A DNA stretch of 49,894 bases, from the IMG/VR virus record IMGVR_UViG_3300050821_005866, positions 1-49,894 of that record, one strand, 5' to 3'. The stretch comes from a virus. A program made the position numbers and the translations under genes. Under the pieces are notes generated by a model. That model was not told where the DNA came from. It saw only the letters and a list, made by a program, of their open reading frames with translations, and made no database searches. Below, in pieces: positions 8,973 through 31,600 of the stretch (within the stretch, counting starts at the first letter, position 1; each line of letters starts with the position of its first letter).

Positions 8973-11900
8973 ATGGCAGATACACAGCCTTCTTTAGCCG
9001 CAGAAAATGCACTATCAGGAGTAGTCGTTGCTGAAGTTCCTGCGACCGCTCAACCCTCTATTCCTGGGGGTTTACGTGTTGTTGGTCTTATTGGTACAGG
9101 ATTAAATTACAAAAATGTTACTGTTACCATCACTCGCGGATCAATTCCAGACACATTCGATCTGCTTAACCCGGTAGCGTTGTCTCTCCCCAGCACGATC
9201 ACGGATGAGAATAATAAAGTTTATTCTCTAGGATCGGGCCCAGGAGTTCTTGACTACTGGCTGTCTCTGCCAACGAGCACTTCCGCTGCAGGCGTATCCA
9301 CCATCGATTGGAACGCCGCTCTACCTTCCGTTGGATTCAATACTCTCATTGTTAATCTTAACGGCGATGGTAACCAGACAATTACTCTGTTCACCACTGA
9401 CGCAAATCCGGTTGCAGTGGCCGCAGATATTCAACTGAAGGTTCGTGCGCTTGTTCCTTTCAACACGAACAACGCTCAGGCATATCTTCAGTTCACTGCT
9501 GTCGCGCAAGCTTCAACTAATCAGTATGTATTGACTTCCGGAACAACGCCGCTCGGTTCTGTGAACGTGAATGGGGGAACTGCCGCAGCTCTTCTGAAGT
9601 TGGGAACTGCTAATGATGGTATTGAAGTTCCTGGAGGAAGCATCAGCTGGGGACCTGCAGGAGTCGCAGCAGTCACTGGCGCAATTGACATAGGTGCAGC
9701 TGCATTCCCTTCTGGAGTCAATCTTAATGGTCAGACATTTGAAGTCTCCGCCAATGGAAGTCCTGTCGTGCAGTCAATCACTTTCGTAGGTACTAGCTTG
9801 AGTCCTACGGATTTCACGACTCTGACAGGTGGAGTCGATCTCGTTCATAATTCAACTGCGGTGAATGGAGTGGGCACTTTATTCCTAGCGCAGTTGGCGC
9901 CAGGAGATCTCGTTCAATTCAACGGAGTAGCTCCGTCGTATCAGGTCGCAGCTGTTAACAGTAACACGAGCTTGACTCTCACAACAGAATTTGCGGGAGC
10001 AACTAATCCAGTGACAACTGGGTACGCTCTACTTTCTGATACCTCTATCTCTAACACTGGAGCATCTGTAATCAACGGAGACGTGGATCTTTCACCAGCG
10101 GGTTCTATTACACCTGGAGGTTGGACTGTAACGGGTACTGTTCACAACGGTGACGCGACTGCTGCGGCGGCTCTAGCAGCAGCCAACGCTTCATTCACTG
10201 CAAAGCAGTCGGCAGCTCTTGCGAGTGAGCCGGGAAGCAACATCCCTTCAGTATTAGATGGACAGACTCTCAACTCCCCTGCGGTAGGTGTGACTCAATA
10301 CTTTACGTTCGCATCTGGAGCAGCGACATTAAACGGAGTTCTAACGCTTAATGGTCCAGGCAACTTCGTAATTTACACCGCTAGTACGTTGGGCGTAGGA
10401 GCCAGCGGAGCTGCAACGGTAACCCTTACAGGTGGAGCGTTGGCTTCAAACGTCTACTGGGTCGTAGGTTCTTCTGCCACATTGCAGAATGCAGGTACAA
10501 TATTCAACGGAAACGTTCTCGCGCAAGCTGCTATCTCCTTCCCCGCAGGCGGCTTGTACAATGGATCTTTTGCGGCGCTCGGTGCAGCTCTGACGACCGG
10601 AGGAGCAATAACGGTCAACGGTAATTCTGCTACACCTATTCCTGTTCCTATCAGCTTAGGAGATGGAATTGTCGAGCAGATGAATGCAGGCTTCTCACCA
10701 GTGATAACGTTTAATTCGACGGTATCTACTTTAGCACATACAGTTACACTTCCGTCACTTCCTGTAACTGGTGACACGTTATTAATTCCTGGATTTACTT
10801 ACACTGTCTCACCAACGCCTGCATCCGGGCAGTATACGATCAGCGGAGTCAATCCTCTGTTGGTAGTCTTCAATGCGACAGCTGCTAATCAGTTCGTCCA
10901 GATTACGTACGCAGTAGCTCCTACATTAGTAGCTTCCATATTCGCACCTCCTTTCCCGTCGACGGCGAACTACGTCGTAGTATCTACAGTGTCCACCGTC
11001 AATGCAGAAATACAAATCGGTAATGGTACGGCTAATACTACTCTTGGATTTACTCCAGGTACCCTTATCGAAGGTCCTCAAGAGCCTGCTGCAGGTGTTA
11101 CATACACGTTTACGTACGGAACACCGAAGATGACTACCGCGACGTTTGATGACTATGGTCCTACTCTGTATACGGATTTGATAAGTCTCATCGCAGCGTA
11201 TGGCCCCGTTGCAACGTCCAACGACTTTACGAGTCCGCTACCTGGATCATCTTCCTTACCGCCGTGGGCGCCTTGGAGTGTAACAAATACGCTTCCTCTT
11301 GGAGCGCAGATCGTCTTCACAAACAGTGGAAACACTGGTGGCATCATGGCAGTACAGTGTAATCCAGCTGATGGAGCTCCTCTCGCTCAGTTCCAGAATG
11401 CTCTCAACAAGCTCGCGAACGTTTCGGGTGTTAACATCGTCGTGTGCTTAACTCCAGATCCGTTACTCACGCCGTCAATCGTGTCCCATGTTGTTAACGC
11501 GAGTCAGCCGCTCGAAGGTAACTTCCGCACAGCCATGATAGGTTTCGATCCTGCGCAAGTGTCTTTGACTAACTCTGGCGTCGATACCGCGATCTCTATA
11601 GCTGAAGGGGTAGCAGCATCAGGTAGTGGGCGTCGTTTCTTAATGCCATGGCCTCCCGCAGTCAACCTGTTCCTTGCGGGTAGCTCTACCATTCCGGCAC
11701 AGCTAGACGGATCATTCCTCGCAGCAGCGATCGCAGGATTACGTATCGATGGAAACAATGACGTTGCTACACCGTTACTTAGACAGTTCTTATTCCCGTT
11801 CACGACTGCAGCAGTCAACCTTATGCGCACGACCAAGCTACAGCTTCGTGATGGAGGAGTGACTGTTGTGGAACTTCAGAATGGTAATATCGTAATCACA

Positions 11901-12224
11901 GAAGATACCACGACGGATCGTTCCACTGTTGACAACGAAGAGTTCTCAGTTACGGAGATTGTCGACTTCACCGCAACAACAGTAAAGACTCTCCTTAACT
12001 CGATCTTCATCGGAGTTAAGATTCTTTCGAATACGACAAGCATCATCACTGCGACTATCCAGGTTCTTCTTAACAACTTGATCGCATTGAACATCATCAC
12101 GAACTACCAGAATGTCACCGCACAAGTCAGTCCTCTAGATCCTAGACAGATCGATGTTTCATTCGAAATCGCTCCTGTATACGGTCTAAGATACATCTCC
12201 GTGCAGTTCTCTCTACAACAGTAA
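8973..12224 (+). CDS. Tail sheath protein with inserted modules
   Basis: This is the contractile sheath subunit, 1083 residues, about twice the length of minimal sheaths. The sheath N-terminus is seen in IPGGLRVVGLIGTG. The core resumes after about residue 700 with NALNKLANVSGVNIVVCLTP, a FLMPWPPAVNLFLAG segment and a C-terminal domain containing NLMRTTKLQL and ITNYQNVTAQVSPLDPRQ. Inserted between are a C module (residues 121-223), a B module (about 286-351), a DUF3494-like domain (355-553) and an A-type beta module (about 575-650). The insertions are likely displayed on the outside of the tail. Strong leader at 8947; followed by two tube genes, as expected for a sheath. Confidence 0.9.
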   Translation: MADTQPSLAAENALSGVVVAEVPATAQPSIPGGLRVVGLIGTGLNYKNVTVTITRGSIPDTFDLLNPVALSLPSTITDENNKVYSLGSGPGVLDYWLSLPTSTSAAGVSTIDWNAALPSVGFNTLIVNLNGDGNQTITLFTTDANPVAVAADIQLKVRALVPFNTNNAQAYLQFTAVAQASTNQYVLTSGTTPLGSVNVNGGTAAALLKLGTANDGIEVPGGSISWGPAGVAAVTGAIDIGAAAFPSGVNLNGQTFEVSANGSPVVQSITFVGTSLSPTDFTTLTGGVDLVHNSTAVNGVGTLFLAQLAPGDLVQFNGVAPSYQVAAVNSNTSLTLTTEFAGATNPVTTGYALLSDTSISNTGASVINGDVDLSPAGSITPGGWTVTGTVHNGDATAAAALAAANASFTAKQSAALASEPGSNIPSVLDGQTLNSPAVGVTQYFTFASGAATLNGVLTLNGPGNFVIYTASTLGVGASGAATVTLTGGALASNVYWVVGSSATLQNAGTIFNGNVLAQAAISFPAGGLYNGSFAALGAALTTGGAITVNGNSATPIPVPISLGDGIVEQMNAGFSPVITFNSTVSTLAHTVTLPSLPVTGDTLLIPGFTYTVSPTPASGQYTISGVNPLLVVFNATAANQFVQITYAVAPTLVASIFAPPFPSTANYVVVSTVSTVNAEIQIGNGTANTTLGFTPGTLIEGPQEPAAGVTYTFTYGTPKMTTATFDDYGPTLYTDLISLIAAYGPVATSNDFTSPLPGSSSLPPWAPWSVTNTLPLGAQIVFTNSGNTGGIMAVQCNPADGAPLAQFQNALNKLANVSGVNIVVCLTPDPLLTPSIVSHVVNASQPLEGNFRTAMIGFDPAQVSLTNSGVDTAISIAEGVAASGSGRRFLMPWPPAVNLFLAGSSTIPAQLDGSFLAAAIAGLRIDGNNDVATPLLRQFLFPFTTAAVNLMRTTKLQLRDGGVTVVELQNGNIVITEDTTTDRSTVDNEEFSVTEIVDFTATTVKTLLNSIFIGVKILSNTTSIITATIQVLLNNLIALNIITNYQNVTAQVSPLDPRQIDVSFEIAPVYGLRYISVQFSLQQ
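9335..9640 (+). repeat. C-type module copy 2 (sheath)
   Basis: It reads LIVNLNGDGNQTITL, then AADIQLKVRAL, YVLTSGT and VNVNGGTAAALLKLG ending NDGIEVPGG. This copy is uninterrupted and serves as a reference for recognising the split copies elsewhere. Confidence 0.75.
9827..10026 (+). repeat. B-type module copy 2 (sheath)
   Basis: It reads GGVDLVHNSTAVNGVGTLF, GDLVQFNG, YQVAAVNSNTSLTL and AGATNP. It directly precedes the DUF3494-like domain in the sheath. Confidence 0.72.
10036..10632 (+). other. DUF3494 / ice-binding-like domain in sheath
   Basis: About 199 residues show family signatures in order: SISNTGASVINGDVDLSP, a helix with AAAALAAANASFTAKQSAA, FTFASGAATLNGVLTLNG, GNFVIYTASTL, TVTLTGGALASNVYWVVG, SSATL, FNGNVLAQAAISF and GAITVNGN. 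These match the discontinuous beta-helix plus long helix of DUF3494 proteins as I know the family. Ice binding itself is not shown. Confidence 0.8.
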
Positions 12225-12230
12225 TAGACA

Positions 12231-12818
12231 ATGGCTGTACCACGATTACCTCAAACGGATCTCCGTCTAGCTACATCGGTCTCTATCTTTTTCTTACCAG
12301 AGAGCTCGATAAGCCTAGCTACTTCTTTTGCGAGCATCTTTGCACCGAGATCCACGACAACAGCTGTCGTGAATCAGATGCAGCAGCTAGACGGGATCGT
12401 TTCGTTTGTGGAGGAACAGTCTAGAGAGTTGGAATCGCGATACGAGGTGGATTCAGATGGTATCGGATCTCCGCTGGAGATAATGGCATCACCTGTGCGA
12501 CATTCTTTCAAGCTCAGGAGAGCTGTAACGTATTATGCCGACTTGATCAGCATTTTGGGTTTTAACTCGCTAGGGATTAATTCTAGTCAAGGAATTCCCG
12601 CAGATGGAACAGTAGACGGCGGATTGTTAGCACAAGCTATTAGTAATCCGTATATCTTTATCAAGAGGGAGATTTCGCCCTCAGGTGGAGACATCGTTAC
12701 CTTTTATAGAAATTGTTTGATTGGTAACATTTCGAGAGACACTAGCGTAGTCAACAGTCTAGGCGTGTATGAAGACGCTAACATCTATTACGCAGACAGA
12801 CAACTTTTTACTTCATAA
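12231..12818 (+). CDS. Tail tube protein, copy 1
   Basis: This 195-residue protein follows the sheath. It is paralogous to the next gene: both start MA.P.LP.T..RL.TSV.I and share VESF.E..SR matched to VSFVEEQSRELE here, an ExxSDG acidic turn and a C-terminal strand ending YY.DR or YSER. This is the pattern of T4 gp19-like tube proteins, which stack as hexameric rings inside the sheath. It lacks a strong ribosome site of its own and may be less abundant than the second copy. It could serve as a tube initiator or terminator ring. Confidence 0.75.
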   Translation: MAVPRLPQTDLRLATSVSIFFLPESSISLATSFASIFAPRSTTTAVVNQMQQLDGIVSFVEEQSRELESRYEVDSDGIGSPLEIMASPVRHSFKLRRAVTYYADLISILGFNSLGINSSQGIPADGTVDGGLLAQAISNPYIFIKREISPSGGDIVTFYRNCLIGNISRDTSVVNSLGVYEDANIYYADRQLFTS

Positions 12819-12834
12819 GAGGTAGGAGAAATAA

Positions 12835-13362
12835 ATGGCAACACCGCAATTACCAGTTACAGTAGCTCGATTATCTACATCGGTTACTATCAGACTTATT
12901 CCGATGGATACTCTTAACTCAGCAGCACTGGCTAACCCTGCTTCTATTTTGACAGCAGTGCAGAGTGCACCTATTGGTGCTGTGGAGAGTTTTCAGGAAA
13001 CTAACTCACGTCCAGCAGTGATTCGTTTCGAGATGAACTCTGATGCTCCGGGAGTCGTACAGGAAGTAACACCCAATCAGGTTGAGGCTCGTACGATTAC
13101 GCTTGATCGAGTCGTATTGTATTCCGGCGACGTTCTGGATACCTTTGATGTCACGAACGGGGATATCGTATTCCAGTATTATCCTTTCGCTTTAATCAAG
13201 GTGGAAGTAGCTCCGGCTGCTGCCAATCTTCCAGACATCATCACGGTGTATCGCGACTGCTGGTTCACAACTAACCCGAAGGCGTATGCAGTCCGCGATT
13301 CCCTAAAGATCATTCAGACTGTTAACATCACGTACTCAGAAAGAGAAGTTGTAACCGTCTAA
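12835..13362 (+). CDS. Tail tube protein, copy 2
   Basis: This 175-residue paralogue of the preceding gene contains GAVESFQETNSRPAVIRFEM followed by NSDAPGVVQEVTPN, the typical tube-protein loop region, and ends NITYSEREVVTV. It is preceded by a good ribosome site (GGTAGGAGA, 4 nt before ATG), fitting the major tube subunit. Gene order sheath-tube-tube-chaperone-tape measure supports the call. Confidence 0.8.
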   Translation: MATPQLPVTVARLSTSVTIRLIPMDTLNSAALANPASILTAVQSAPIGAVESFQETNSRPAVIRFEMNSDAPGVVQEVTPNQVEARTITLDRVVLYSGDVLDTFDVTNGDIVFQYYPFALIKVEVAPAAANLPDIITVYRDCWFTTNPKAYAVRDSLKIIQTVNITYSEREVVTV

Positions 13363-13389
13363 TTCGTTCGGTCGTGAAGGAGAGATAAG

Positions 13390-13782
13390 ATGACACCCGC
13401 AACCGCAGCAATGCCCGACGTAAAGAAACCAATGACACTAAATGAAATTTCACAGCTTGGCTACAATCAGAAAACCAAAGAAGTATTCGATGGTGCGACT
13501 CTGACTGTCCAAACTTTGTCGTTATCCCGCCAACAAAAAATCCTATCAAACATTCCCGCCGAAGCGACGGACCCTCTTGTGCGGTACACTCATCTACAGA
13601 TTGAGACCCTGGCAAATGCGACGCTTGCAATTAACGATGAGAAGTACTCCGAGGCAGATGTAAATCGTTTGCGCGCGTTTTACGGTGGCTTACAAAGCAG
13701 AGTCTTACAGTTCTTCTACGAAGTCTATCAGGATATGATGGATGAGCAGGAGAAGACTTTGTCGGGTTTAAAAAAAACCTAA
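13390..13782 (+). CDS. Tail assembly chaperone, G-type product
   Basis: This 130-residue, mostly helical acidic protein sits between tube and tape measure genes, the universal place of tail assembly chaperones. A strong site GAAGGAGA precedes the ATG. It ends SGLKKT just after a slippery run. The zero-frame product corresponds to gpG of lambda-type systems: it coats the tape measure during tail assembly and is absent from the virion. The overlapping -1 frame makes the longer GT form. Confidence 0.85.
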   Translation: MTPATAAMPDVKKPMTLNEISQLGYNQKTKEVFDGATLTVQTLSLSRQQKILSNIPAEATDPLVRYTHLQIETLANATLAINDEKYSEADVNRLRAFYGGLQSRVLQFFYEVYQDMMDEQEKTLSGLKKT

Positions 13783-14114
13783 GCCTTGAGGAGATACCAT
13801 TTCGTAGCGACTACGAAATATGTAAGCTCTTAAACTGTACCCCGAACGATAAGAAGTTTACGGACCTGACTATAGCTCAACGGCTATGGTTCTCGCTTAA
13901 TATTCATAGAGATAAAGTAGAACACGCAGAACAGATTAAGAATATCTGTATGCATATACAGCCTGGCGCTTACTTTACTAAGAAGCCGGACGCTGTATCT
14001 ACTGACTTTATCGGAGATATTATGCAAAAGTTGGGTCGAGAACTCACTCCCGAAGAAAAAATGGCTTTGGATGTTCCTGATGATGGCGATGTAGACATAA
14101 TCACGAGAGAATAA
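13390..14114 (+). CDS. Tail assembly chaperone, GT frameshift product
   Basis: A -1 shift at 13773 joins 128 zero-frame codons to 113 codons of the -1 frame, giving about 241 residues. The T part begins KNLSLEEIPFRSDYEICKLL and ends DVDIITRE. It has no usable start of its own: no ATG with a ribosome site lies near its beginning, so it must be made by frameshift. The T domain in known systems recruits tube subunits to the tape measure-chaperone complex. The annotated end is the -1 frame stop. Confidence 0.87.
13767..13776 (+). promoter_or_regulatory. Programmed -1 frameshift site
   Basis: The run TTTAAAAAAA spans 13767-13776. Read in the zero frame it holds T TTA AAA (13767-13773) and, overlapping it, A AAA AAA (13770-13776), both canonical X XXY YYZ heptamers. 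The zero-frame stop TAA follows at 13780. The -1 frame is open from there to 14114, ending 1 nt before the tape measure ATG. Confidence 0.9.
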
Positions 14115-14115
14115 A

Positions 14116-15882
14116 ATGGCTGATGACATTCCTCTACCCGGAGAAACTCCTGACAATGTAGGCCCCTCTTCTGCAGAGAAGTCAGAAGCGGCGAAGGCAG
14201 CTCTTCGGGATATAGACGCTCTTTACAGCTCGCTTATTGGAAAGCAGAAAGATTCTACTAGAGAGGAGAATGCTTTTCTTAATTTGCTGTCTAAGCGACA
14301 GGCGATATTGGATGAGATCTCTCAGAAGATGGTTGGTCTCTCCGGTGAGCAGAGAGCGTACGCTCGTGCGGAGTACGAAGCGATAGAAGATGAATCGAAA
14401 AGGATTGCTTCTGTTGAAAAATATTTCGGCGTGACTAAGGGAGTTACAAAAGAGTTACAGGAGCAGGAGCGTATTCGTAAGGCTATTGAGAAAACGGGCG
14501 CAGCTCTTGGGATGCAGACAGCTGATATCGCTAGGCTCCAGGCTCTCGCCGCTGCGGATACGATGTTGGAACAACGACAGGGACATGCTGCAGCATTCGG
14601 AGAAAAAGTAGGGAGGGTAACCTCCACCGCCGGTAGCGCGTTGGGTGCCGCAGATGCTGTGTTCAATTTTCAGTTACAGAATGCGATGATAGGCGCCATC
14701 GGCAAGGCGACTACTCTGATGCAGGGTGGAAATATCCGGGGAGGAGCGCAGGCTTTATCTAACCAGCTATTTGGTGGTACAGGTGAAGCAATGGGGCCCG
14801 TTGAGAGGATGGAAGCTCTCAATAAGGTCTTAATGAATGCGCCGCGCGCCGCGGGAGAAACTTCTGCGTCCATGAATAAGATGATCGGTACCATGGCTTT
14901 CTTTGGTGCGGATATGGATAAGATCACGGAAAATCTTATCAAGGGCAATAAAGATCTTAATCTTTCCGCAGATAATCTCGCCGACGTGTACATGTCTGCG
15001 AATGCGGTATCAAAAAATTTGGGGCTATCCACACTAGACACATCTGACAACTTGCTCGAGATGTACGCGTCTCTTCGCCAGGTTGGTGGATCTGTTCATC
15101 AAGCGGAATCGATTTTAGACTCATTTGGTAAGACAGTTGGCAAGACAGGAATGTCCGCATCTGAAGCGGCAAGTCTGGCTCAAAAATTTTCACAAGGAAT
15201 TTCTTCGCTGCCCATCGAAAAGATGATGGGTCTAGTACAATTTACAACCGGAAAACCTTTACAGGCACAGACGGCAGCGGATCTAGGTAATGGTAATATA
15301 ATACCTACAGTCTTAGCGACATTCAGTAAAATTTCTAGCCAAATGGGCGGCAGCTATAGTGAGCAGCTGGTAGCCACAGAAAAGATAGCACAGATGGTTG
15401 GTATTAATGTGTCAAGCTTCCGTGACGTTTCTAATCTCATGACACAATTAAAGTCGGGCGCTCTCACGGAACATGACATTAATTTGTTATCGAATCCGGC
15501 TGTAGCCGCTGCAAAAGGTATTGAAGATCTCAAAGCAACAATCGATCCTCTTAAGAGGATCGCGAATGCTACGGAAAATTTACAAGCAACTGTATCGACA
15601 CTAAGTGCTACAATCACGAATTGGGGATTAGGTAACTTGATGCCTGCGCTTATCGGACTCAAGGTCGGATCGGGAGTAGTAGGTGCTTTCGGCGGTGCTG
15701 CTAAGGTTGCAGCGGCTACTACTGGAACGGGTATAACTGCTGGTCTCGGTACAATGGAAGTAGGAGAGATAGCTGCTATGGGGCTGCTCAGCGCTCCTGC
15801 GCTAGTCGCTACGGCAGGTGTGGCTGCGGCAGGAGCCGCAGGATACTATGGCACCAAGTATGCAATGGATAAGCTGAGGTAA
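14116..15882 (+). CDS. Tail tape measure protein
   Basis: This 588-residue, largely helical protein starts 1 nt after the GT stop. The N-terminal third is charged coiled coil (KEKSEAAKAALRDID-like heptads, QEQERIRKAIEKTGAAL), and the middle is Ala/Ser/Met-rich helical. Near the C-terminus are hydrophobic Gly/Ala segments (about residues 500-585) that could insert into the host membrane. Location after the chaperone and before the hub is diagnostic. At about 1.5 angstrom per residue the length predicts a tail near 90 nm, rather short. No muralytic domain was seen. Confidence 0.87.
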   Translation: MADDIPLPGETPDNVGPSSAEKSEAAKAALRDIDALYSSLIGKQKDSTREENAFLNLLSKRQAILDEISQKMVGLSGEQRAYARAEYEAIEDESKRIASVEKYFGVTKGVTKELQEQERIRKAIEKTGAALGMQTADIARLQALAAADTMLEQRQGHAAAFGEKVGRVTSTAGSALGAADAVFNFQLQNAMIGAIGKATTLMQGGNIRGGAQALSNQLFGGTGEAMGPVERMEALNKVLMNAPRAAGETSASMNKMIGTMAFFGADMDKITENLIKGNKDLNLSADNLADVYMSANAVSKNLGLSTLDTSDNLLEMYASLRQVGGSVHQAESILDSFGKTVGKTGMSASEAASLAQKFSQGISSLPIEKMMGLVQFTTGKPLQAQTAADLGNGNIIPTVLATFSKISSQMGGSYSEQLVATEKIAQMVGINVSSFRDVSNLMTQLKSGALTEHDINLLSNPAVAAAKGIEDLKATIDPLKRIANATENLQATVSTLSATITNWGLGNLMPALIGLKVGSGVVGAFGGAAKVAAATTGTGITAGLGTMEVGEIAAMGLLSAPALVATAGVAAAGAAGYYGTKYAMDKLR

Positions 15883-15884
15883 TT

Positions 15885-16391
15885 ATGGCTAATACGAAAT
15901 TTCCGCTGAAATTAAATGGAGTGAGCTTCTTGGTCAACCCTACTAATTTGAGCGTCAAGAAGCCCATCGTCAAGGGGGCAGTTAGTACCCAGTCTGGTGT
16001 ACGATTCCAGATATGGTATAATAATCCAGAGATATTGACCATAAGTGGTCTATCTACCGGTCAGTCCGCTTACTCTGAATTACTATTTCTTAAACAGAAC
16101 TACGAAATCACTAGAACGTCGACGATCAGCACTCTCTTCTACAAAACTAAACTTTACCGCGGTTTTATAGATTCTATAGAAGTGGGACACTCGATTGATA
16201 GGCATCAGCGGTGGCCTTATACGATCCAATTCCAATTGATACAAGGGGAGCAATTTAATATAATGGACTTTGCTCTACAGCCAGGTACAGGGCCTCTAGG
16301 ACAGATCACCAATCTATTGGAACAAAATATCAACGCGCCTATTGCTAGAGCGACCGGCGCGCTTAATGGCGTGATAGGAAAAGTAATCTAA
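15885..16391 (+). CDS. Baseplate hub-associated / tube initiator-like protein
   Basis: This 168-residue protein begins FPLKLNGVSFLVNPTNLSV, with Asn/Pro strands seen in small baseplate proteins that join the tube to the hub. Middle strands include ILTISGLSTGQSAY and LYRGFIDSIEVGHS, and the end is Gly/Ala/Ile helical. It is followed with 1-nt overlap by the large hub gene. No LysM motif was identified. Function is inferred from order (tape measure, this gene, hub). Confidence 0.65.
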   Translation: MANTKFPLKLNGVSFLVNPTNLSVKKPIVKGAVSTQSGVRFQIWYNNPEILTISGLSTGQSAYSELLFLKQNYEITRTSTISTLFYKTKLYRGFIDSIEVGHSIDRHQRWPYTIQFQLIQGEQFNIMDFALQPGTGPLGQITNLLEQNINAPIARATGALNGVIGKVI

Positions 16392-20218: not shown

Positions 20219-20219
20219 T

Positions 20220-21377: not shown

Positions 21378-21378
21378 T

Positions 21379-21951
21379 ATGGGTTTACCAATTCTACAGG
21401 CGGCGCTTAAAAAGCAATTAGAGAACACTGCGAATGCTAGTCTTACCGGCTGGTTGGCCATATCTAGCTTGCTCTGTCTCGAAGAATTTTTACTTTTACT
21501 ATTTACCGCGGGCATATTAGAAGAGTTTAAGGTGGCGTTGGAGGGGCTTATAGCAGCTGCAGCTGCGCAAGTTGCCATCCTCGAGGTAGTTGTCGCGGAG
21601 CTAGAATCTATCAATACGGTCATAAGCACTTTTATCAACACGGTCAAATCATTAATCGCAGCTGCGGCTGCCAAGTTATCAATTTTTCCTTTTAACAATC
21701 CCCTTTTCCAACAGTGCCCCATCGTGCAGGCTATTGAGCAGGATATAACTGTTCTCGTTCAGTCTTCCCTTTCCCCTTTCGCAAAGGTGTATAAAGGTAC
21801 GCTCGCTGATATCAATTTATTGCAATACCAGCTTCTCAGGAACCAAAAAAGTTTACTCCAAATCAATCAAAAGATTGCGGCGTTACAGCAATCGATACTT
21901 GCTTGGCAGGCTATCATAAACGCGATAGCGAATCAGTTCGGTATACATTAA
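21379..21951 (+). CDS. Helical baseplate-region protein
   Basis: This 190-residue protein is almost wholly helical and hydrophobic: LLCLEEFLLLLFTAGI, LIAAAAAQVAILEVVVAEL and SLIAAAAAKLSIF. The two AAAAA helices are similar to each other, suggesting an internal duplication. It sits between spike and gp25-like genes. It may be a baseplate adaptor or membrane-interacting factor released at infection. I do not recognise the family. Confidence 0.6.
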   Translation: MGLPILQAALKKQLENTANASLTGWLAISSLLCLEEFLLLLFTAGILEEFKVALEGLIAAAAAQVAILEVVVAELESINTVISTFINTVKSLIAAAAAKLSIFPFNNPLFQQCPIVQAIEQDITVLVQSSLSPFAKVYKGTLADINLLQYQLLRNQKSLLQINQKIAALQQSILAWQAIINAIANQFGIH

Positions 21952-21959
21952 GAGGTAAA

Positions 21960-22436
21960 ATGGATTTCCTTTTACAGACGCTACCCAATCAAAATAATCC
22001 CTATAATAATACTGTCTTAAATCCCGTTACTGGCTCCTTTTGGGGGCAAGGTACTAACGATTTTATTGTAGATAATACTGGAGATTTCGCCCTCGTCAAT
22101 GGTGAAAATAATCTAGCTCAATCCATATGTAAAATTATCGTGACCACCAGAGGCGACAATACTTTTTTGCCTATGTATGGATCTATCATTAATAGTTTTG
22201 TCGGCTCACCTATTAATATTGATGAACTTCGCGCCAACATAAAGACGGACTTAATCGACACTCTTCGTATATATCAGTTTATTAATCAAGGGAATCCAGA
22301 TCCTAAGGAGCAGATTGATATTTTACAGTCGCTAGCGGTCAACCTAATTCCGGGCGTCAACGGGATCACTGTTACTTTTCAAGTGATTACACTGGCAGGA
22401 ACAGCCGTAGGTAGTACTATAACGGTCGAGGGATAA
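21960..22436 (+). CDS. gp25-like baseplate wedge protein
   Basis: The start at 21960 is chosen because AGAGGTA lies 3-9 nt upstream; the frame is open further but would overlap the previous gene. The 158-residue product shows the gpW/gp25 pattern: a beta N-terminus, ENNLAQSICKIIVTTRGDN, then MYGSIINSFVGSPI and a helix TDLIDTLRIYQFI. In contractile machines gp25 nucleates the wedge and starts sheath polymerisation. It precedes the J-like wedge gene by 2 nt, the usual pairing. Confidence 0.8.
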   Translation: MDFLLQTLPNQNNPYNNTVLNPVTGSFWGQGTNDFIVDNTGDFALVNGENNLAQSICKIIVTTRGDNTFLPMYGSIINSFVGSPINIDELRANIKTDLIDTLRIYQFINQGNPDPKEQIDILQSLAVNLIPGVNGITVTFQVITLAGTAVGSTITVEG

Positions 22437-22438
22437 TT

Positions 22439-23893
22439 ATGATACTTACGGTCACCCAAGTAATTAACAATATGGTCGCGTATATTCAGAATGTCATCCC
22501 TGGATTGTCGCTCTTGGAGGGAACTGTCGCCAGAGATGTCGTCATAGAGTCGCCAGCTCAAGAGTTTGGCCGCGTATGGACTGAATTGGGTAGAGTGGAA
22601 GCTATGCAGACGATGACGGATCCTACTGCATTCATTAACAATGAGCTCGATAATCTCGCTTCCAGCTTTGGTCTTACGCGTAAACCTGGAACAGCCGCAT
22701 TGGGCTCCGTTACATTCTCTCTCGCTAATTTTTCGCCCTCGTCGAGCAATATTACTATTTCTGCGGGCACGGAAATATCGACACAGTCTAGTCTGACTAA
22801 TAATACCGTTGTCACATTTACAACGACTTCAACCGTAACATTCGTGGCCGCCAACGCAAGTACTTTCTACAATCCGCAGAACGGAGACTATGAGATAACT
22901 GTACCTATTCAGGCAACGACTGCCGGTACTCAAGGTAATGTAGCAGCGGGTACGATCAACGTTCTCGTAACCTCTTTACCGAATAATATAACGGTTAGTA
23001 ACTCCAACGCAACTTTTGGAGGATCGGCAGCAGAGTCAGACGCGGCACTTCTCACACGAATTCAACTGAAGTTAGCGGGTACCGCTATGGGTACTCCAAG
23101 CGGAATACTCAGCTTTGTAAATGCAAGCCCCTACGTGATAGCCTCCCTACTAGTGGGTCCTACTGATCCTTTGCTGGTTCGTAGCTCTTATGGCAATGCG
23201 GCAGATGTATATATCATCGGAGATCTTCCAACACCTGTCGTAGAAACGCAAACGTTTACCGCGGGAATAGCTACGTACGTCTTACAGCAGCAACCTGTGG
23301 AGGCGGGATCGGTTAATCAAATCATAGCAGGTACCGTCGGTGGATTGAGTTTTAACTTTGTAGAGGGAACTAATTTCGTAGTCAATCAGGATAACACAAC
23401 ATCTGCGGGTGGATCTGTCAATGCACAGACCTCCGTGACTTTTCTCGGGTCGCCTTTCCCCGATGCGAATACGGGTATTACTATAGATTATTCCGTTAAT
23501 AATCTCATTGTTGATCTGCAGACTTCGATCAACAGCGATACTAATCACATTGTGGGGACAGATATTCTAATAAGAGAAGCCATTCAGGTTCTTGTAGATG
23601 TAAGCGCCTTCATTACTGTCTTTCCAGGCTATACGAAAGCGAATGTAGTCGCGGCGGCAGTCACCAATGTAGATAACCTTTTGAATTCATCTACGCTCGG
23701 ATCTTCCATCAGCGAGTCAGATATTATAGCCACTATTCAAGAAACTCCTGGGGTCAATGCTGTCTCAATACCTATTTTCATATCTATCTCTACTCCAACG
23801 GTTCCCGCGCTCACACCTGTGGTTAATCTTGTGACGGCCGAAAATCAATATTTGAGACCTAACCCGGCTCCTAACTCGATATCAATTACCTAA
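22439..23893 (+). CDS. Baseplate J-like wedge protein
   Basis: This 484-residue protein has the J/gp6 family features: an N-terminal helix, a segment with GSVTFSLANFSPSS, then ITISAGTEIST, later TTAGTQGNVAAGTINVLV and GGSAAESDAALLTRIQLKLAG, in the usual order. It forms the wedge arch of the baseplate. The C-terminal third holds a beta module (TAGIATYVLQ...VNLIVDL-type) and a helical domain. Its partner gp25-like protein is directly upstream. Confidence 0.87.
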   Translation: MILTVTQVINNMVAYIQNVIPGLSLLEGTVARDVVIESPAQEFGRVWTELGRVEAMQTMTDPTAFINNELDNLASSFGLTRKPGTAALGSVTFSLANFSPSSSNITISAGTEISTQSSLTNNTVVTFTTTSTVTFVAANASTFYNPQNGDYEITVPIQATTAGTQGNVAAGTINVLVTSLPNNITVSNSNATFGGSAAESDAALLTRIQLKLAGTAMGTPSGILSFVNASPYVIASLLVGPTDPLLVRSSYGNAADVYIIGDLPTPVVETQTFTAGIATYVLQQQPVEAGSVNQIIAGTVGGLSFNFVEGTNFVVNQDNTTSAGGSVNAQTSVTFLGSPFPDANTGITIDYSVNNLIVDLQTSINSDTNHIVGTDILIREAIQVLVDVSAFITVFPGYTKANVVAAAVTNVDNLLNSSTLGSSISESDIIATIQETPGVNAVSIPIFISISTPTVPALTPVVNLVTAENQYLRPNPAPNSISIT

Positions 23894-23905
23894 CGAGGAT
23901 ATAAA

Positions 23906-24436
23906 ATGTCTAATCCTTCTCCATGGCCCGTAACACCATCAATCGAATCAACTAGCTTAGTAACTCTATTTGATCAACATTCATCAACTCCGACCCCATA
24001 CGCTGGACAGCTATATTTAGTACCTTCTACAGGGATTGTATTCTTGCAGGAAAATCCCCTCCAGACGAATACAGCTGTTCCCACGGGAGTGAGCTGCATT
24101 GAAACATCAGGTCCTCATACAGGTGTACTGAAAGAGGTGTTGATATCTCCTCCGGCAGCTGGACAGTTTTACGTAGATTATTTTAATGGATCAGTACAGT
24201 TCGGAGATGTAGGTGCAACGGTCGCTGTTACGTATCAGGGCGTAGGATCGGTTGTACTCGCTGAGACTATCAACAATATGGTTACGTACATTATAGCGGC
24301 CTCCAGCGCTGCGTCATTTATCGCGCCTAACTTTGTTACAGATCCTGGTTCGCCAGGCGTAGGACAGATTTGGTTTAATACGACGGATAGTCAGTTTAAA
24401 GGATGGAATGGTTCAGCAGTTGTAATACTAGGATAA
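23906..24436 (+). CDS. Small baseplate/fibre protein
   Basis: This 176-residue protein has a Pro/Ser/Thr-rich N-terminus, a beta unit (GQFYVDYFNGSVQFGDV, an A-type module core), a short helix, and a C-terminal DPGSPGVGQIWFNTTDSQFK tip, typical of phage fibre ends. CGAGGATATAAA provides the ribosome site. It probably attaches to the baseplate next to the J-like wedge. Confidence 0.65.
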   Translation: MSNPSPWPVTPSIESTSLVTLFDQHSSTPTPYAGQLYLVPSTGIVFLQENPLQTNTAVPTGVSCIETSGPHTGVLKEVLISPPAAGQFYVDYFNGSVQFGDVGATVAVTYQGVGSVVLAETINNMVTYIIAASSAASFIAPNFVTDPGSPGVGQIWFNTTDSQFKGWNGSAVVILG

Positions 24437-24437
24437 T

Positions 24438-27400
24438 ATGTCAGAATACGGAACGATATTATACACGGGCCGCGGAGGCCCTACTAACTACTACACGGGA
24501 GCTGGTACTGATCAGCCCCAGAGTCTAGATTTCTATCGAACGGATACCGATGGAGACTATGTATTTCACTGGACATTTTTACAATCGTTTGTGAGCCCTC
24601 TCATAAATCCTACGCTCTTTAGCCTCGACTATATCCTGCAGCTAGATACTAATCCAACGTTCAATCTGCCGACAACCTTCGAAACGGTTTCAGGTCAGGC
24701 GGATGTATCTGCTCACGGGAAAAATATATCGGGGCCCTACGCCGCAACGGCTATAGGATCGGGCCTCACTCTTATCATCAATATTGATGGAGACGGACTG
24801 CAGACAGTTACTCTCCCTGCTAACGCTTCAGGGACGGCTATCGCGGCGAGTATTCAGTCGGCTGTACAAGCTTTGACGGCCTTTCACCCCGCTCTGCAGT
24901 CCTCCTATAATAATTTTCTAGCTAACTTCGAGTTGCTCAGCGGTGCGCCTACTTACGTACTATATTCTGGGAGTATAGGTGTGTCTAGTTCGGTGGTTGT
25001 GTTGGGAGGTACTGCCGCTCCGATATTAAATCTGGGGGTGCCTTATGGAGGGATTCAGTCGTTAGGTGGAGAACATGTTTTACAATTTCTACCTGGAGGA
25101 GTGCTGAGTGTAACGGATAGTTCAGGCGTCGTTTACACTGATGTATCCGCAACGACTAACACACCAGGACTTAATCAATTCGTTGTGAGTATTCCTACGG
25201 GTGTGATCACTTTCAACATAGGAAATATTCCAGGCCTTCAAGATACTTTCACCATAATATACTTCCCGGCTACTAGTGCGCCTATTCTTAATTTTCAAGA
25301 CGGTAATGTGGAGAAGGGATTTACGGTACCAGTACCTCCGCGAGTGGCGAGTGCTCCTGTCACCTTCTACGCTAGAGTAGCCGTTAAGTATGGTCCATTC
25401 TCTTATGGAACGTGGTCTTCTACCTTAACTGTTCTGACGATTCCTAACGTCATCAATGAGACGTTCAGTCGTCTGATGTTGGCTCTTCCTGACTTCCACG
25501 TATATCCCACGGATAACGCTTACTTACTTAATGGTTCCCTAGTCGATGGAATAATTCCAAATCCGCTGCCAGCAGGATTGAGTAATATTGCCAAAGTGTA
25601 CTTGGCGTACGCCACACAATTCGATTTAGAGTATCTCGAAAAAGAGAATGCCATAAGAGACGTGAGACAGGATCGTCAGCGCGACGAGCGCTTAGGATCT
25701 ATTCTAGGCGCTCTATATAAGTATCCCCAACCGAAGGGGGTGCAGAACGTAGATTATCGACTAATACTTAGCGATATGAAGGCAGCTTCTCTAGATGGAG
25801 CCACATACGAAGCGGTTAAGTTAGTCGGCGCAGCATTCACGGGTGTCGATCCCACAATATTTCCTATATCGAAAATCCTTAATTTTATTACAGCAAGTTT
25901 TGATACCGAACTTACCGGAGTCAATTATCCTGGAGTCATTCAGAATATAACAGTTGATCCTGTTACTCATATGGCAACATTGTCGGATGGTGTTGCTAAC
26001 GATCCGATTATTCCTGGATCACTCATCTCAGGACCTGTGGCTTCTATTACAGATGGACCCGAATCTATTCCATCTGTCGCGCCTTTCACCCTGACGCTAT
26101 CACAGCTGCCCGCGGATATCCCTACTATCGCTGGATATACGTTCACCACAGGAGCTCCCGCTGTGAATCAGTTCAGCGTGAACTTCGCAGCGCCAGGAGC
26201 GTCCATATCTGGTGCTTCTCCTGCGACTACTACTTCTGGACTGTCCTTCAATATTGATATTAATGGAGATGGAATTCAAACCGTTACAATCGGCGCTCAG
26301 TCATCTGGAGCGAATATTGCCGCAGCGATACAGGCAGTCATTCGTTCGCTCACAGCTAATACTCCATTTAACCAGGCGGCGTACGATGCAACCACTGTTG
26401 TGTACACAACTGTTTACACGCTCACTTCTGGAGCAGGCGGATTAAACTCGAGTGTCATCATCACAGGCTTAGGAGCTGCACCCCTAAAGCTTGGGCAAGC
26501 GAATGGGGGAACTGAAACAGGCCCTTCGGGTGTCGTAACTTTCAACCCATCTAATGCAGGAGATTCTGTTTCAATTACGTACGTACCTAATTACGAGCGC
26601 GGAAATATGGATGTTCCCGGCAGAACACTTATCATCAATATCGATGGTCTTGGACCTCAAACGATTACTCTGGTAGCTAATGCTGCCAACGATTACTTAG
26701 CTACGAAGACAGGCGTCGCGTTAGCTATACAGACTGCGGTCAATAATCTTGGTCCAGCGCCTGCAACTACTCAGTTAGCGCTACTCGCTTCATCGACTAT
26801 TACGAACAGCGGGTCATCTATCATCACGGGTGACGTTGATCTTACTCCGGGTTCCTCCGTAACAGGATTTCCTCCAGGAACATATAGTGGTACACTTAAT
26901 ATAGATAATGCAGCAGCAGCGAATGCTATGGCAGCAGCTAACACTGCATTCACAGCAGGGCAATCTGCGGGACTAGGTGGTACGTTACTCACCGCAGATT
27001 TGAGCACGTACAGTCCTCTACCTCCGGGTAATTACTATTACTCCGCGTCAGGAGGTTTGACAGGTAGCTTAGTTCTGAATGGTACAGCATCCTCCACGTG
27101 GGTTATCTACACGGGGAGCACTTTAACTACTGCTTCCGCCTCCTCCGTTACGATGACAGGAGGAGCTTTAGCGAAAAATGTGTTATGGGTTGTAGGTAGC
27201 TCTGCGACATTTGGAACTTCAACTTCTTTCCAGGGAAATGTTATCGCACACGCGAGCATCACGTTGAATGGTGCCGACGCTATGAATGGACAGTTATCGG
27301 CTCTCACAGGGGCAATAACTATCGCGACCGCTAGTACAGTTGTTGGATCTACTCAACCAGCTGCTCCAGGATCCCAGACAGCTTACACTGATTTCGCGGC

Positions 27401-28616
27401 CCTATACAATTCCGCAACGGACGCGTTTACGCTTGTTTCGGGAAATCAATCGCCTACACAAACTAGTACCGTTGCTGTAACAGGAGGGACTGCGGCTACT
27501 CAGTTGCGCTTGTTAGCTGCCGACGGCGCTACACAAACTTACGGTCTAGTTTACGAAACTCCTCCAGGTCCCCCTCTCGGTCCTCCTTCTGGAAAATTTG
27601 CAAGTAATATCGTTCCGCCGGGAGATGGAAGTATTCTGACATTCAACGCAAATGAAGCAGGGAATATACATACAGTACTATTTCTTCCCGTGGCTGATAT
27701 CTTCACATATCTACCGGGGATAACTGTGGAAAATATACCTATTGCTCTTACGGTTCCCTCATCGCCACCGTATACGATCACGCTGGCTAACGCATCCTGC
27801 GACATCCCTAAGATAATACTTGTTAAAGGAACAGTTAATGTTAACAACGGGTCTCCTCTCGTAGTGGGTAGCGGTACTATGTTCACTTCTCTAGAGATAG
27901 GAGATACGGTTGCGGTACTGGCCTCTGGTGTTTACTACGGACCTTATATCATCCAGAGCATTGCAGATAATACTCACCTGACTCTGGCGTCTAACTATAC
28001 AGGGACTAACGCCGGATCAGCGGGCTTCATAGACTATGATCGCAGCTCTTATAAATTCATACCGACGCCTACGGTGGCAGGTGCATCTATCTCAGGAACT
28101 GTATCAATAACTAACGGCTCCCTATTAGTCGTAGGTACCGCTACGTCTTTCACTGCTACTCTATCTGTAGGAGAAGCTATTCAGTTCAGCAGTCAACTCG
28201 GTACTCTCTACTTCATTGAGTCTATCACGGATGACTTCAACTTAACATTAGAGACAGCGTACACAGGAATAACTACGACGTCAACGACCGTTAATCCTCC
28301 GGGGTTAGCGCCATTCCCTCCTGTGGTTAATCCGGGTGAGTTCACGGACGACTTTGGTACACCTGCAACTTTGACATTCAATGCATCGGCAGCAGGCGAC
28401 CCCATAATTGTATCATATACGATACGTGTACCTATCCAGGATATTGATACGGTTAATAATGCGCCTATATTGTTCAGTGATACCGAAGCAGGTTTCGGTA
28501 TCGAAATCATATTGAATAACCCCGCGTTGTTCACTTTAGATCTATCTAACATATCGTTCCTATTGACACAGATTCTTCCAGCGAATACAAAATTCATCCT
28601 GACGGAAGTACCATAA
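24438..28616 (+). CDS. Giant baseplate protein with nested modules, tail protein I-like core
   Basis: This 1392-residue protein follows the wedge genes. Residues about 335-490 are helical and resemble the tail protein I type partner of gpJ (ARVAVKYGPF, LSNIAKVYLAYATQFDLEYL, RDVRQDRQRDERLGSILGAL). The rest is a mosaic: C modules near 105-210, 597-697 and 728-1034 (the last split by a DUF3494-like domain at 784-971), B modules near 1130-1196 and 1218-1284, and A-type beta strands between them. The C-terminal end resumes with VPIQDIDTVNNAPILF. The recurring linker GASISG borders two inserted modules. It is probably a surface-displayed baseplate component. Confidence 0.75.
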   Translation: MSEYGTILYTGRGGPTNYYTGAGTDQPQSLDFYRTDTDGDYVFHWTFLQSFVSPLINPTLFSLDYILQLDTNPTFNLPTTFETVSGQADVSAHGKNISGPYAATAIGSGLTLIINIDGDGLQTVTLPANASGTAIAASIQSAVQALTAFHPALQSSYNNFLANFELLSGAPTYVLYSGSIGVSSSVVVLGGTAAPILNLGVPYGGIQSLGGEHVLQFLPGGVLSVTDSSGVVYTDVSATTNTPGLNQFVVSIPTGVITFNIGNIPGLQDTFTIIYFPATSAPILNFQDGNVEKGFTVPVPPRVASAPVTFYARVAVKYGPFSYGTWSSTLTVLTIPNVINETFSRLMLALPDFHVYPTDNAYLLNGSLVDGIIPNPLPAGLSNIAKVYLAYATQFDLEYLEKENAIRDVRQDRQRDERLGSILGALYKYPQPKGVQNVDYRLILSDMKAASLDGATYEAVKLVGAAFTGVDPTIFPISKILNFITASFDTELTGVNYPGVIQNITVDPVTHMATLSDGVANDPIIPGSLISGPVASITDGPESIPSVAPFTLTLSQLPADIPTIAGYTFTTGAPAVNQFSVNFAAPGASISGASPATTTSGLSFNIDINGDGIQTVTIGAQSSGANIAAAIQAVIRSLTANTPFNQAAYDATTVVYTTVYTLTSGAGGLNSSVIITGLGAAPLKLGQANGGTETGPSGVVTFNPSNAGDSVSITYVPNYERGNMDVPGRTLIINIDGLGPQTITLVANAANDYLATKTGVALAIQTAVNNLGPAPATTQLALLASSTITNSGSSIITGDVDLTPGSSVTGFPPGTYSGTLNIDNAAAANAMAAANTAFTAGQSAGLGGTLLTADLSTYSPLPPGNYYYSASGGLTGSLVLNGTASSTWVIYTGSTLTTASASSVTMTGGALAKNVLWVVGSSATFGTSTSFQGNVIAHASITLNGADAMNGQLSALTGAITIATASTVVGSTQPAAPGSQTAYTDFAALYNSATDAFTLVSGNQSPTQTSTVAVTGGTAATQLRLLAADGATQTYGLVYETPPGPPLGPPSGKFASNIVPPGDGSILTFNANEAGNIHTVLFLPVADIFTYLPGITVENIPIALTVPSSPPYTITLANASCDIPKIILVKGTVNVNNGSPLVVGSGTMFTSLEIGDTVAVLASGVYYGPYIIQSIADNTHLTLASNYTGTNAGSAGFIDYDRSSYKFIPTPTVAGASISGTVSITNGSLLVVGTATSFTATLSVGEAIQFSSQLGTLYFIESITDDFNLTLETAYTGITTTSTTVNPPGLAPFPPVVNPGEFTDDFGTPATLTFNASAAGDPIIVSYTIRVPIQDIDTVNNAPILFSDTEAGFGIEIILNNPALFTLDLSNISFLLTQILPANTKFILTEVP
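24751..25070 (+). repeat. C-type module copy 3
   Basis: It reads LTLIINIDGDGLQTVTLP, then AASIQSAVQAL, YVLYSGS, VVVLGGTAAPILNLG and YGGIQS. It is uninterrupted. Confidence 0.75.
26225..26530 (+). repeat. C-type module copy 4, inserted in an A module
   Basis: It reads LSFNIDINGDGIQTVTIG, AAAIQAVIRSL, YTLTSGA, VIITGLGAAPLKLG and NGGTETG. It sits between the two halves of an A-type unit: FTLTLSQLP...NQFSVNF before it and VVTFNPSNAGDSVSITY after it. Confidence 0.75.
26620..27540 (+). repeat. C-type module copy 5, split by DUF3494-like domain
   Basis: The N-half (RTLIINIDGLGPQTITL, then LAIQTAVNNLG) ends near 26786. The C-half (AYTDFAALYNSATDAFTLVSG, then VAVTGGTAATQLRLL) begins near 27379. Between them lies the ice-binding-like domain. 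Confidence 0.75.
26787..27350 (+). other. DUF3494 / ice-binding-like domain in baseplate protein
   Basis: About 188 residues, the clearest copy: SSTITNSGSSIITGDVDLTP, SSVTGFPPGTYSGTL, a helix of Ala-rich AAAANAMAAANTAF, LTGSLVLNG, WVIYTGSTLTT, VTMTGGALAKNVLWVVGSS, FQGNVIAHASITLN and GAITIATASTVVG. Order and spacing follow the DUF3494 family as known. Confidence 0.85.
27825..28025 (+). repeat. B-type module copy 3
   Basis: It reads GTVNVNNGSPLVVGSGTMF, then SLEIGDTVAV, YIIQSIADNTHLTL and NYTGTNAG. Confidence 0.75.
28090..28290 (+). repeat. B-type module copy 4
   Basis: It reads GTVSITNGSLLVVGTATSF, then LSVGEAIQFS, YFIESITDDFNLTL and AYTGITTTST. It follows copy 3 by a short linker that again contains GASISG. 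Confidence 0.75.
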
Positions 28617-28617
28617 C

Positions 28618-31600
28618 ATGCAGAAAGAACAATTCTTCGAAGATCAACCCATCCTCCAAAGTGATTTGCAGCTTGCTGAAAGCAGCAAGGAAAACGCGAT
28701 CAGAGAGCGTCAGCTTGATCTCTTAGATCCGGGCGTAGTCGTTGGTTCTCAGTTACTCGGAGAACCAATCTCTCTCGCGGTTACTCAGGGCCCTAGCGCG
28801 GGACTGTTTATCACTGTTAACACAGGAGTTGCGGTATCTCCTGAAGCGGAGAGAATCATTATTCCTTCCGTAGTGGCGTATAACGCCTCTCTTCCGACGA
28901 CTCAAACGGATAATGGTATCGGCGGAATGGTATTGACTCCGCAGTCTTCCGGGTCTCAGAATATTCCGGTGGCTAATAATACCATTAACTGGATTTGGGT
29001 CGGTTATCTAGAAACAACCGATACGAGCGTGTTTACTCTCAGCGAGGCGAATAATTCGCGTTTATTCGTTAAGCATGATGACGGTTATATCATTCAGGTA
29101 ACCCAGATCAGTACTAACCCTGATCCTACAACGTACGTGTTGGTTGCACAGGTTACTACGGCGGGCGGGCTCGTGACGTTGATCAATACAACCAACTTCT
29201 TACAGCCTATGGTTTATGGTCCCGTATTAATTCCAGGATCATATCTATTATCCTTGCCCGTGCTCCCAAATCTTTCACCGGAGTTTAATTTCCCAAGTAG
29301 CGTACCGATAATTGGTGAAGACAATACCGACACCCTTTTAGTTCCCTCTGTGGCGCCATACGCTGTCACCCTATCCCGAATACCTCTAGACACTACATGG
29401 AATATTCCAATCGTCACAGGAGTAATCAACCCCACTTACTCATATGTGGTAGGAACTCCCGTAGGTACTCAATTCTCTCTCAACTACTCTACAGGCGTCG
29501 TCACTTTTAGCTCAGCGGCGTCCGCAGATACCGTTACCATTACTTACGCGGAAGCTATTGATCCTTTCACGTATACTCTAACAGCTCCTACAGCTACGGG
29601 GCAGTTCACCGTAGATTTTTCGACAGGTATCGTACAGTTCTACTCCGCAGATGCAAATATTATTATAGGTACCACTAAGGTGTCGATGACGTATCAAGTT
29701 TTGAATGTGTGCCGACAGAATAGCGTGACAGTAGGTAGCACTGTGGCTGCTTACCTTTATCTGAATCAGAAGACGACGACGTATGCTCTGGGTCAGGAAG
29801 TTACGATGACGGCTCACGTCAATGCGTATGGATCTGGAGTAGTAACTCCGAATAATCCTCACGGTGTAGGTGCTGCAGATATAGGATTGGCAGGTGTTTC
29901 AGAGCTAGCTGAAATAGCAATAGATAATGGCATCGTTACGCCTACTGGGAATGCTAGCTCGCTGACCTCATCACTATCTCCATCAGCTACCTATCAGGCT
30001 CTTCCTCCGGGGGCTAACGTCGTAACAATATCACCTCTCGCAGCAGGAGAACTCGTCAATGTAGGTGGTACTATTGTCTCCTCCACTAATATTCCCAGCC
30101 TGTTAACATTTAATTTCTTAAACCCGAACACGCTAGCGCCGTTGCCTGCGAGTACTTATTATTTTTATATCGATCCTACCCTACTCACCGTTCAACAGAG
30201 TACATCATTACCTCCGGGAGCGTTTGCGATAGCATCCATATATTGGAATGGAGCCACTGTCGTTTTGCCTATAGTAGATCTCCGCGAGTTCGGAGTAGTT
30301 GGTAAGAATAATATGCGTCTCGAGGTGCTTTTGGGACTGGCGACGGGCTGCGCCACCGATAATAGAGTAACCGATCTGTACAGTGCTAAGCTCGTCGGTT
30401 CTACGATTGTTTCCTTTCCATCGTATCTGTATATGGGTTTAGGAGGAACAACGTTGGTTGCGGTGGTAAATGGGATATCTTACTCGTTGACTTTCCCTGC
30501 ATCGCCGGCAGATGTACCCCTTTCCGAAGTAGTCGCTCTGATTGAAAATAGTCTCCTGTGGAGTCCTTCTGTACCTCCTATAACTGCTATGGCTACAGCG
30601 GGAGGCCAGATCAAACTCCTGGCGGCCGTATCATTAGCGCTCAGCGGATCCGCAGCCACGGTACTCGGATTTTCGGGATCTCCTACGGCAGGTACTTCTA
30701 CGTCGGGAGCTAACCCCGCTACTACCGCAGCTCCTTCTGGATTGACTTTTAGCGTCGACGTCGATAATGGCGGCAATCAAACAATTAACGTACCTTCTAC
30801 TGCGGTTACTGGCGCAGAAGTCGCTGCTGCGATCCAAGCAGATCTTACCGGCGCTACTGTAGTCTATAACAGCGGAGTTGGCTACGGTATTCTCGCACAG
30901 GCTGCCATTACAGGTTCTACCGGAGGAGGCTCCACAGTCATAGGCGACTTAGATATCACTCCTGCAACGAACACCTCTATCACTAACTTCCCTCCTAGTA
31001 CATTTAGCGGGGCCGAGCACTTTGGAGTAGATCCTGTTGCAACTAATGCTCTATCGGTGGCACAGGCAGCGTTTACGGCAGGGATGGCAGCAGGTAATGC
31101 GGGTACACTTATCACTGGAGGTATCCTCGACGGGTACACAATGACTCCTGGTGCATACTTTACTTCTTCCACCGCGACTTTGTCAGGTACTTCTCCTCTC
31201 ACATTTAATGGAGCGGGTACATATACTATCGCGGTGGACTCCGCTCTCACCACTGGATCTAGTGGTACTCCCGTTATGACACTCACAGGCGGAGCGACCG
31301 CTGCTAATATATTTTGGTACGTAGGCAGCGCTGCCACAATCAATAGTGGTCACTCTGGGACATTTCAGGGAAGCGTTAACGCTTACGCGGCGGTCACAGT
31401 TACATCAGGCGGCGTCATTAATGGTTCATTAGCTGCTACGGGGCCCGCAGGCGCTGTCACCCTTTCTAACACCACAACTGTTAATGGAGGTACTGCGGGA
31501 ACGGCCGACTACGTAATCACTTCCAATACTACGGGAGTCAACAGTGAAGTCGTGGTGACAGGAGCGGGCGCGTCTACTTTGAAGCTTGGAGTATTGAATG

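Follow-up and report, generated by a model that had tools for sequence, protein, structure and literature searches.

Background

The hyperactive ice-binding protein FfIBP carries a regular T-A/G-X-T/N repeat. In AnpIBP the ice-binding site is the B-face, i.e. the outward-pointing columns 1, 2, 4 and 6 on six strands, together with a loop (PMC7277481). Phage tail sheaths can carry additional domains, which lie away from the tube and for which roles in adhesion or stability, including the stabilisation of sheath disks, have been proposed (PMC9230969); Ig-like domains are the usual example of such modules, and T4 Hoc has been reported to attach to bacterial surfaces (PMC10385173). Here we describe three DUF3494 domains that are built into tail proteins encoded on the IMG/VR record IMGVR_UViG_3300050821_005866 (49,894 bases, without end repeats), which was analysed over its whole length and is referred to as the window. 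The gain, loss and permutation of the domain in related phages suggest that virus particles carry it as a sticky surface module that can be swapped. In the open-access literature, to which the search was confined, we found no earlier description of DUF3494 in phage sheath or tail proteins.

DUF3494 domains in three tail proteins

The left part of the record is a contractile-tail morphogenesis block and the right part holds replication genes (a DnaB-type helicase, a second helicase and a ribonucleotide reductase), downstream of which a glycine-rich domain protein (PF21722) is encoded at 46738-47934. When the open reading frames were compared with Pfam by hmmscan, three of them, all on the plus strand and encoding a tail sheath, a protein of 1392 aa and a fibre-like protein, scored above the curated cut-off of PF11999 (DUF3494, Ice_binding; 28.7 bits). 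The domains are located at 10032..10595 in the sheath (aa 354-541, 6.6e-21, 75.4 bits, standard order), at 26784..27332 in the 1392-aa protein (aa 783-965, 3.9e-35, 121.9 bits) and at 30889..31476 in the fibre (aa 758-953, 4.4e-21, 75.9 bits). They are 43-50% identical in pairwise comparison, and searching all six frames of the record recovered exactly three PF11999 matches, without internal stops. That all three are genuine DUF3494 domains is practically certain. A reading made earlier from the DNA letters (the sequence-only reading) had recognised such domains in the sheath, a second large tail protein and a fibre and had proposed a profile search as a check; the recognition was right in all three cases, and the span it gave, 10036-31494, covers the right region, although its ends are off by about 4 and 18 bases from the profile-derived coordinates.

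The sheath, too, had been named correctly: the C-terminal part (aa 770-1082) of the 1083-aa product of the gene at 8973..12224 matches the PHROG tail-sheath profiles phrog_2839 (1.7e-27) and phrog_279 (3.3e-21), and there is a weak match to PF17482 (23.6 bits, under the cut-off of 26.9). The C-terminal part of the sheath core was placed at 11289..12218 (aa 773-1082). Directly before the DUF3494 domain stands a small module (9828..10013, aa 286-347; PHROG 1980/9922) that by our reading is predicted to be SH3-like; a module of the same kind (phrog_2712/1980) is found in the open reading frame directly upstream of the sheath gene (8095-8952). The gene of the 1392-aa protein (24438..28616) directly follows a Baseplate_J gene (22439-23893), a position that makes the earlier description as a 'giant baseplate protein' plausible, although no profile names it baseplate; we refer to it as tail- or baseplate-associated. 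The gene of the fibre-like protein (28618..31851, 1077 aa) is followed by a tail-fibre-assembly-like open reading frame (31861-32592, phrog_863). Display of the domain on tail proteins is supported for the sheath; for the 1392-aa protein and the fibre we infer it.

Fold and B-face of the viral domains

At the sequence level, the copy in the 1392-aa protein matches the solved ice-binding proteins 7BWX (3.5e-28) and 6EIO (2.4e-27). Its AlphaFold2 model, for which 54 sequences from this and other viruses served as input, reached a pLDDT of 93-98 across the domain and shows a discontinuous beta-solenoid braced by a long alpha helix (106-127), so that structure prediction, the second check proposed earlier, also returned the DUF3494 solenoid with its side helix. 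The significant Foldseek matches are all DUF3494 ice-binding structures (31 with E <= 0.001; TM 0.86-0.87 to AnpIBP, 7BWX/7BWY), and the fold is that of DUF3494 and not an immunoglobulin beta-sandwich. The individual fold prediction covers this copy, and the sheath and fibre copies are assigned by the curated cut-off and by their 42-50% identity.

With the ice-binding columns of AnpIBP as reference, columns 1, 2 and 4 of 84 viral domains consist for 97.7% of T/S/A/G/V/N and for 0.7% of charged residues, and Thr makes up 41% of these columns compared with 15% domain-wide; for strand four, the figures of columns 1 and 2 carry a bias, because most of the domains were collected by means of patterns that end in ...VGS or ...VGSSA. 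Column 4 has Thr in a mean of 5.45 of 7 rungs, versus 3.5 in AnpIBP and EfcIBP, and hand mapping of the window fibre gave 7 of 7. These columns are small and Thr-rich in all three window copies, and the remark in the sequence-only reading that TxT rows were not evident was mistaken. The viral domains preserve the flat face of small residues with which AnpIBP binds ice. Nevertheless, 84 bacterial DUF3494 domains, many of them from soil organisms, show a matching pattern (column 4 Thr in 5.21 of 7 rungs), and because these relatives share it, the flat, small, Thr/Ser-rich and charge-poor character of the B-face, although present, does not discriminate between ice binding, binding to another surface and a demand of the fold.

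Nesting within a tail domain

In the 1392-aa protein and in the fibre, DUF3494 splits a tail domain of ~100 aa (termed 'IN-like' here), which we take to resemble flagellin hook-IN motifs and which occurs uninterrupted elsewhere in the tail proteins of the window. This domain has no Pfam name; its only match, to DUF3383, is weak (E 0.004). The 5' and 3' parts in the 1392-aa protein (26619..26783 and 27333..27545) score 23.4 and 65.3 bits separately and 77.1 bits when joined; those in the fibre (30739..30888 and 31477..31620) score 22.3 and 32.5 bits separately and 50.1 bits joined, as a single match across profile positions 1-100. The joined flanks of the homologues in contig G002 behave alike (74.7 and 73.6 bits). 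The profile was made from 24 sequences, mostly uninterrupted copies. Since one of the 24 is the 3' flank from the 1392-aa protein, the joined score of that protein is slightly inflated, which does not apply to the fibre or to G002. The flank-joining scores show that, in the 1392-aa protein and the fibre, another tail domain hosts DUF3494 as a nested insert.

The sheath contains an intact IN-like domain (9339..9635, aa 123-221; 116 bits with our own profile). An IN-like domain split three ways in the same protein would be a guess, prompted by an alignment by eye with the uninterrupted G007 sheath; with our profile it scores 3.4 bits, i.e. it receives no support. Further IN-like domains are present in the large open reading frame at the 5' end (1-2856, aa 626-741) and in a small one after the fibres (35767-36417), which implies that the domain is reused across the tail region.

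Circular permutation

In the sheaths of a distant lineage (architecture D, see below) the C-terminal three quarters of DUF3494 stand ahead of the N-terminal quarter. A correspondingly rotated profile gave a near-full-length match in 16/16 permuted proteins (15 sheaths and one other; e.g. L029:5752-6759, L025, L023 and L079:11422-12990), outscoring the best standard-order match by tens of bits, and this order was reversed in five standard-order controls. The sole non-sheath protein of the set has a chitobiase-C-like domain (PF13290) at its end. The cut point takes two slightly different positions, either before the helix or in the loop preceding it. AlphaFold2 modelling of ten permuted sheaths (first sequence L029) gave a pLDDT of mostly 70-95 over residues 46-240, the relocated N-terminal part included, with flanks below 50, and Foldseek matched the permuted model to DUF3494 structures. 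No paper on a circularly permuted DUF3494 was found in the open-access literature searched. The permutation implies that the N and C ends of the DUF3494 fold must be close, which makes it easy to insert.

Distribution, mobility and selection

PF11999 scored above the cut-off in 36/36 IMG/VR contigs fetched by the domain, several with 2-5 matches, some of the double matches being two parts of one permuted domain, and a sheath-core profile identifies many of these carriers as tail sheaths. Further relatives of the sheath, when fetched, included some with and some without DUF3494. It is present in 30 of 54 distinct related sheath cores from IMG/VR, a selected set and no census, and is missing from close relatives of the carriers; nearly all sequences used for comparison are uncultured IMG/VR contigs. 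Parsimony requires 12 state changes over these 54 cores, and on well-supported branches at least 6 gains or losses are unavoidable. The sheaths have four or more insertion sites and fall into four architectures, in which DUF3494 follows the small module (A; the window and G002), follows an IN-like front part (B; L271, L280, L263 and others), lies near the N-terminus (C; G007) or is permuted (D). Clean empty sites are seen as well: apart from the DUF3494 insertion, the sheaths of G006 (943 aa) and L287 (737 aa) can be aligned over their whole length.

The domain and the remainder of the sheath do not follow the same course. The L271 and L263 sheaths are 83% identical inside DUF3494 and 49-57% outside, and those of L271 and L268 are 41% identical inside and 77-84% outside; in L268 the domain (aa 377-549) occupies the same sheath region as in L271, which points to replacement of the cassette. 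Judged by these identities, the exchange of DUF3494 cassettes is uncoupled from the sheath core. In close pairs dN/dS was 0.09-0.30 in the sheath DUF3494 versus 0.03-0.08 in the core, which shows purifying selection on the sheath copies of close relatives, weaker than on the core.

In a domain tree, 44 viral domains, including the three of the window, form a virus-only group (SH-aLRT 96 by a quick method), within which the window sheath and 1392-aa copies cluster with domains of G007 and L208, and the fibre copy with the three domains of G002. The copies, earlier described as three paralogues, are indeed homologous, but since the fibre copy groups apart, with domains of another phage, they did not simply arise as recent paralogues. 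Nor is the domain peculiar to this virion: it is a mobile module that is widespread in uncultured myophages. Among 50,697 phage records, a tblastn search with the domain of the 1392-aa protein and with a second viral DUF3494 protein gave no match, although some may be hidden by the low-complexity filter. PF11999 is absent from S-SKS1, Tunturi_5, Mx1 and Nappy, even though Tunturi_5, Mx1 and Nappy encode related sheath cores. A search for the host by means of the sheath core gave no hit, either among 199 genomes from a single phylum (centred on an Acidobacteriaceae MAG) or in four genomes that carry DUF3494.

Two contigs encode proteins of roughly 520-550 aa that combine DUF3494 with a chitobiase-C/Fn3-associated domain (L081:12442-14103 and L079:11422-12990) and also have DUF3494 in other large proteins; these are possibly further virion decorations.

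Discussion

We consider it probable (at about 0.6) that the three domains serve a contractile-tailed phage as a mobile adhesion module displayed on the virion, which works like the Ig-like domains of phages. This explanation fits best because of the repeated insertion, loss and replacement, the conserved flat face and the constrained but faster evolution of the domain. By analogy with other sheaths, whose extra domains lie away from the tube, the module would point outward from the tail, and the sheath copy, displayed once per subunit, would form a helical array. The conserved Thr-rich B-face might then bind an ordered surface weakly and multivalently, by which free virions would be held near their hosts; candidate ligands are a glycan of the host envelope, an extracellular polymer, a mineral or ice. 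Against adhesion, the B-face may be kept for the fold alone, as bacterial relatives have the same face.

That ice proper is the ligand, such that virions anchor to ice or inhibit its recrystallisation and thereby survive freeze-thaw or become concentrated with hosts in brine films, is conceivable but unlikely. The closest solved relatives bind ice, column 4 is richer in Thr than in AnpIBP and EfcIBP, strong avidity would be expected from a helical array and some bacterial carriers of close relatives are palsa MAGs; yet the bacterial relatives also include Streptomyces and Microbacterium, which are not specially cold, and share the face. Arrays of real ice-binding domains on sheath, tail tip and fibres, i.e. 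ice-binding virions, with a natural permuted DUF3494 in a sister lineage, are to be regarded with the same doubt. We think it quite unlikely that the domain has a purely structural role as spacer or cement, i.e. as a stable beta-solenoid tolerated in loops, which braces sheath subunits or lengthens fibres and has no ligand. The close N and C ends and the proposed stabilisation of sheath disks by extra domains (PMC9230969) agree with such a role, whereas a part in subunit packing does not go well with how often the domain is gained, lost or, in the same position, exchanged for a version of 41% identity, and the potential binding face is highly conserved.

PF11999 genes of three Arctic vOTUs were annotated as cryoprotective auxiliary metabolic genes (AMGs; PMC11515562), but a role in sparing infected hosts from freezing, which has been suggested for these ice-binding-like genes of Arctic waters, is highly improbable here and is contradicted for the three window copies by their architecture: each is part of a tail protein, two being nested in another tail domain, and none is a free-standing secreted protein. 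A low-complexity, chance or assembly artefact, which the richness in Ala, Gly, Ser and Thr might suggest, is refuted by E-values down to 1e-35, the high-confidence fold, open frames without stops, a separate IMG/VR contig that carries the whole sheath and the domain of the 1392-aa protein at 100% identity, and diverged homologues in dozens of other contigs.

The adhesion reading enlarges by one fold the small number known to move from one phage surface protein to another and includes a directly testable claim, namely that some phages stick to ice or ordered surfaces, for which sheath pairs with and without DUF3494 can be used in experiments. The natural circular permutation of an ice-binding fold is of use in protein engineering. 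Caution is also due where genes in viromes are annotated as 'ice-binding AMG', since they may sometimes encode virion domains.

Compared with the DUF3494 ice-binding proteins AnpIBP (7BWX) and EfcIBP (6EIO), the phage copies share the profile, the fold with its long side helix and the flat Thr/Ser B-face, but are built into tail proteins, nested in another domain and, in relatives, sometimes permuted. The viral ice-binding-like AMGs (PMC11515562) belong to the same Pfam family, but are there auxiliary metabolic genes and not virion domains; Synechococcus phage S-SKS1, named in that study, had no PF11999 match in our analysis. As in the phage sheaths with additional domains (PMC9230969), the sheath core is split by inserts, although those of that survey are mainly Ig-like beta-sandwiches and some helical domains, unlike DUF3494, and its text does not mention 'ice' or 'beta-helix'. 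The Ig-like domains on phage tail and capsid proteins are likewise promiscuous surface inserts that come and go, with a proposed weak adhesion (Fraser 2006, via PMC9230969; T4 Hoc, PMC10385173), and their way of working, i.e. mobile insertion in several virion proteins and presence or absence among close relatives, is also that of DUF3494. The folds are unrelated, DUF3494 being a beta-solenoid with one flat regular face, and the likeness is one of behaviour only: what is new is the DUF3494 fold in the role of a promiscuous virion surface domain, whereas the role itself is known.
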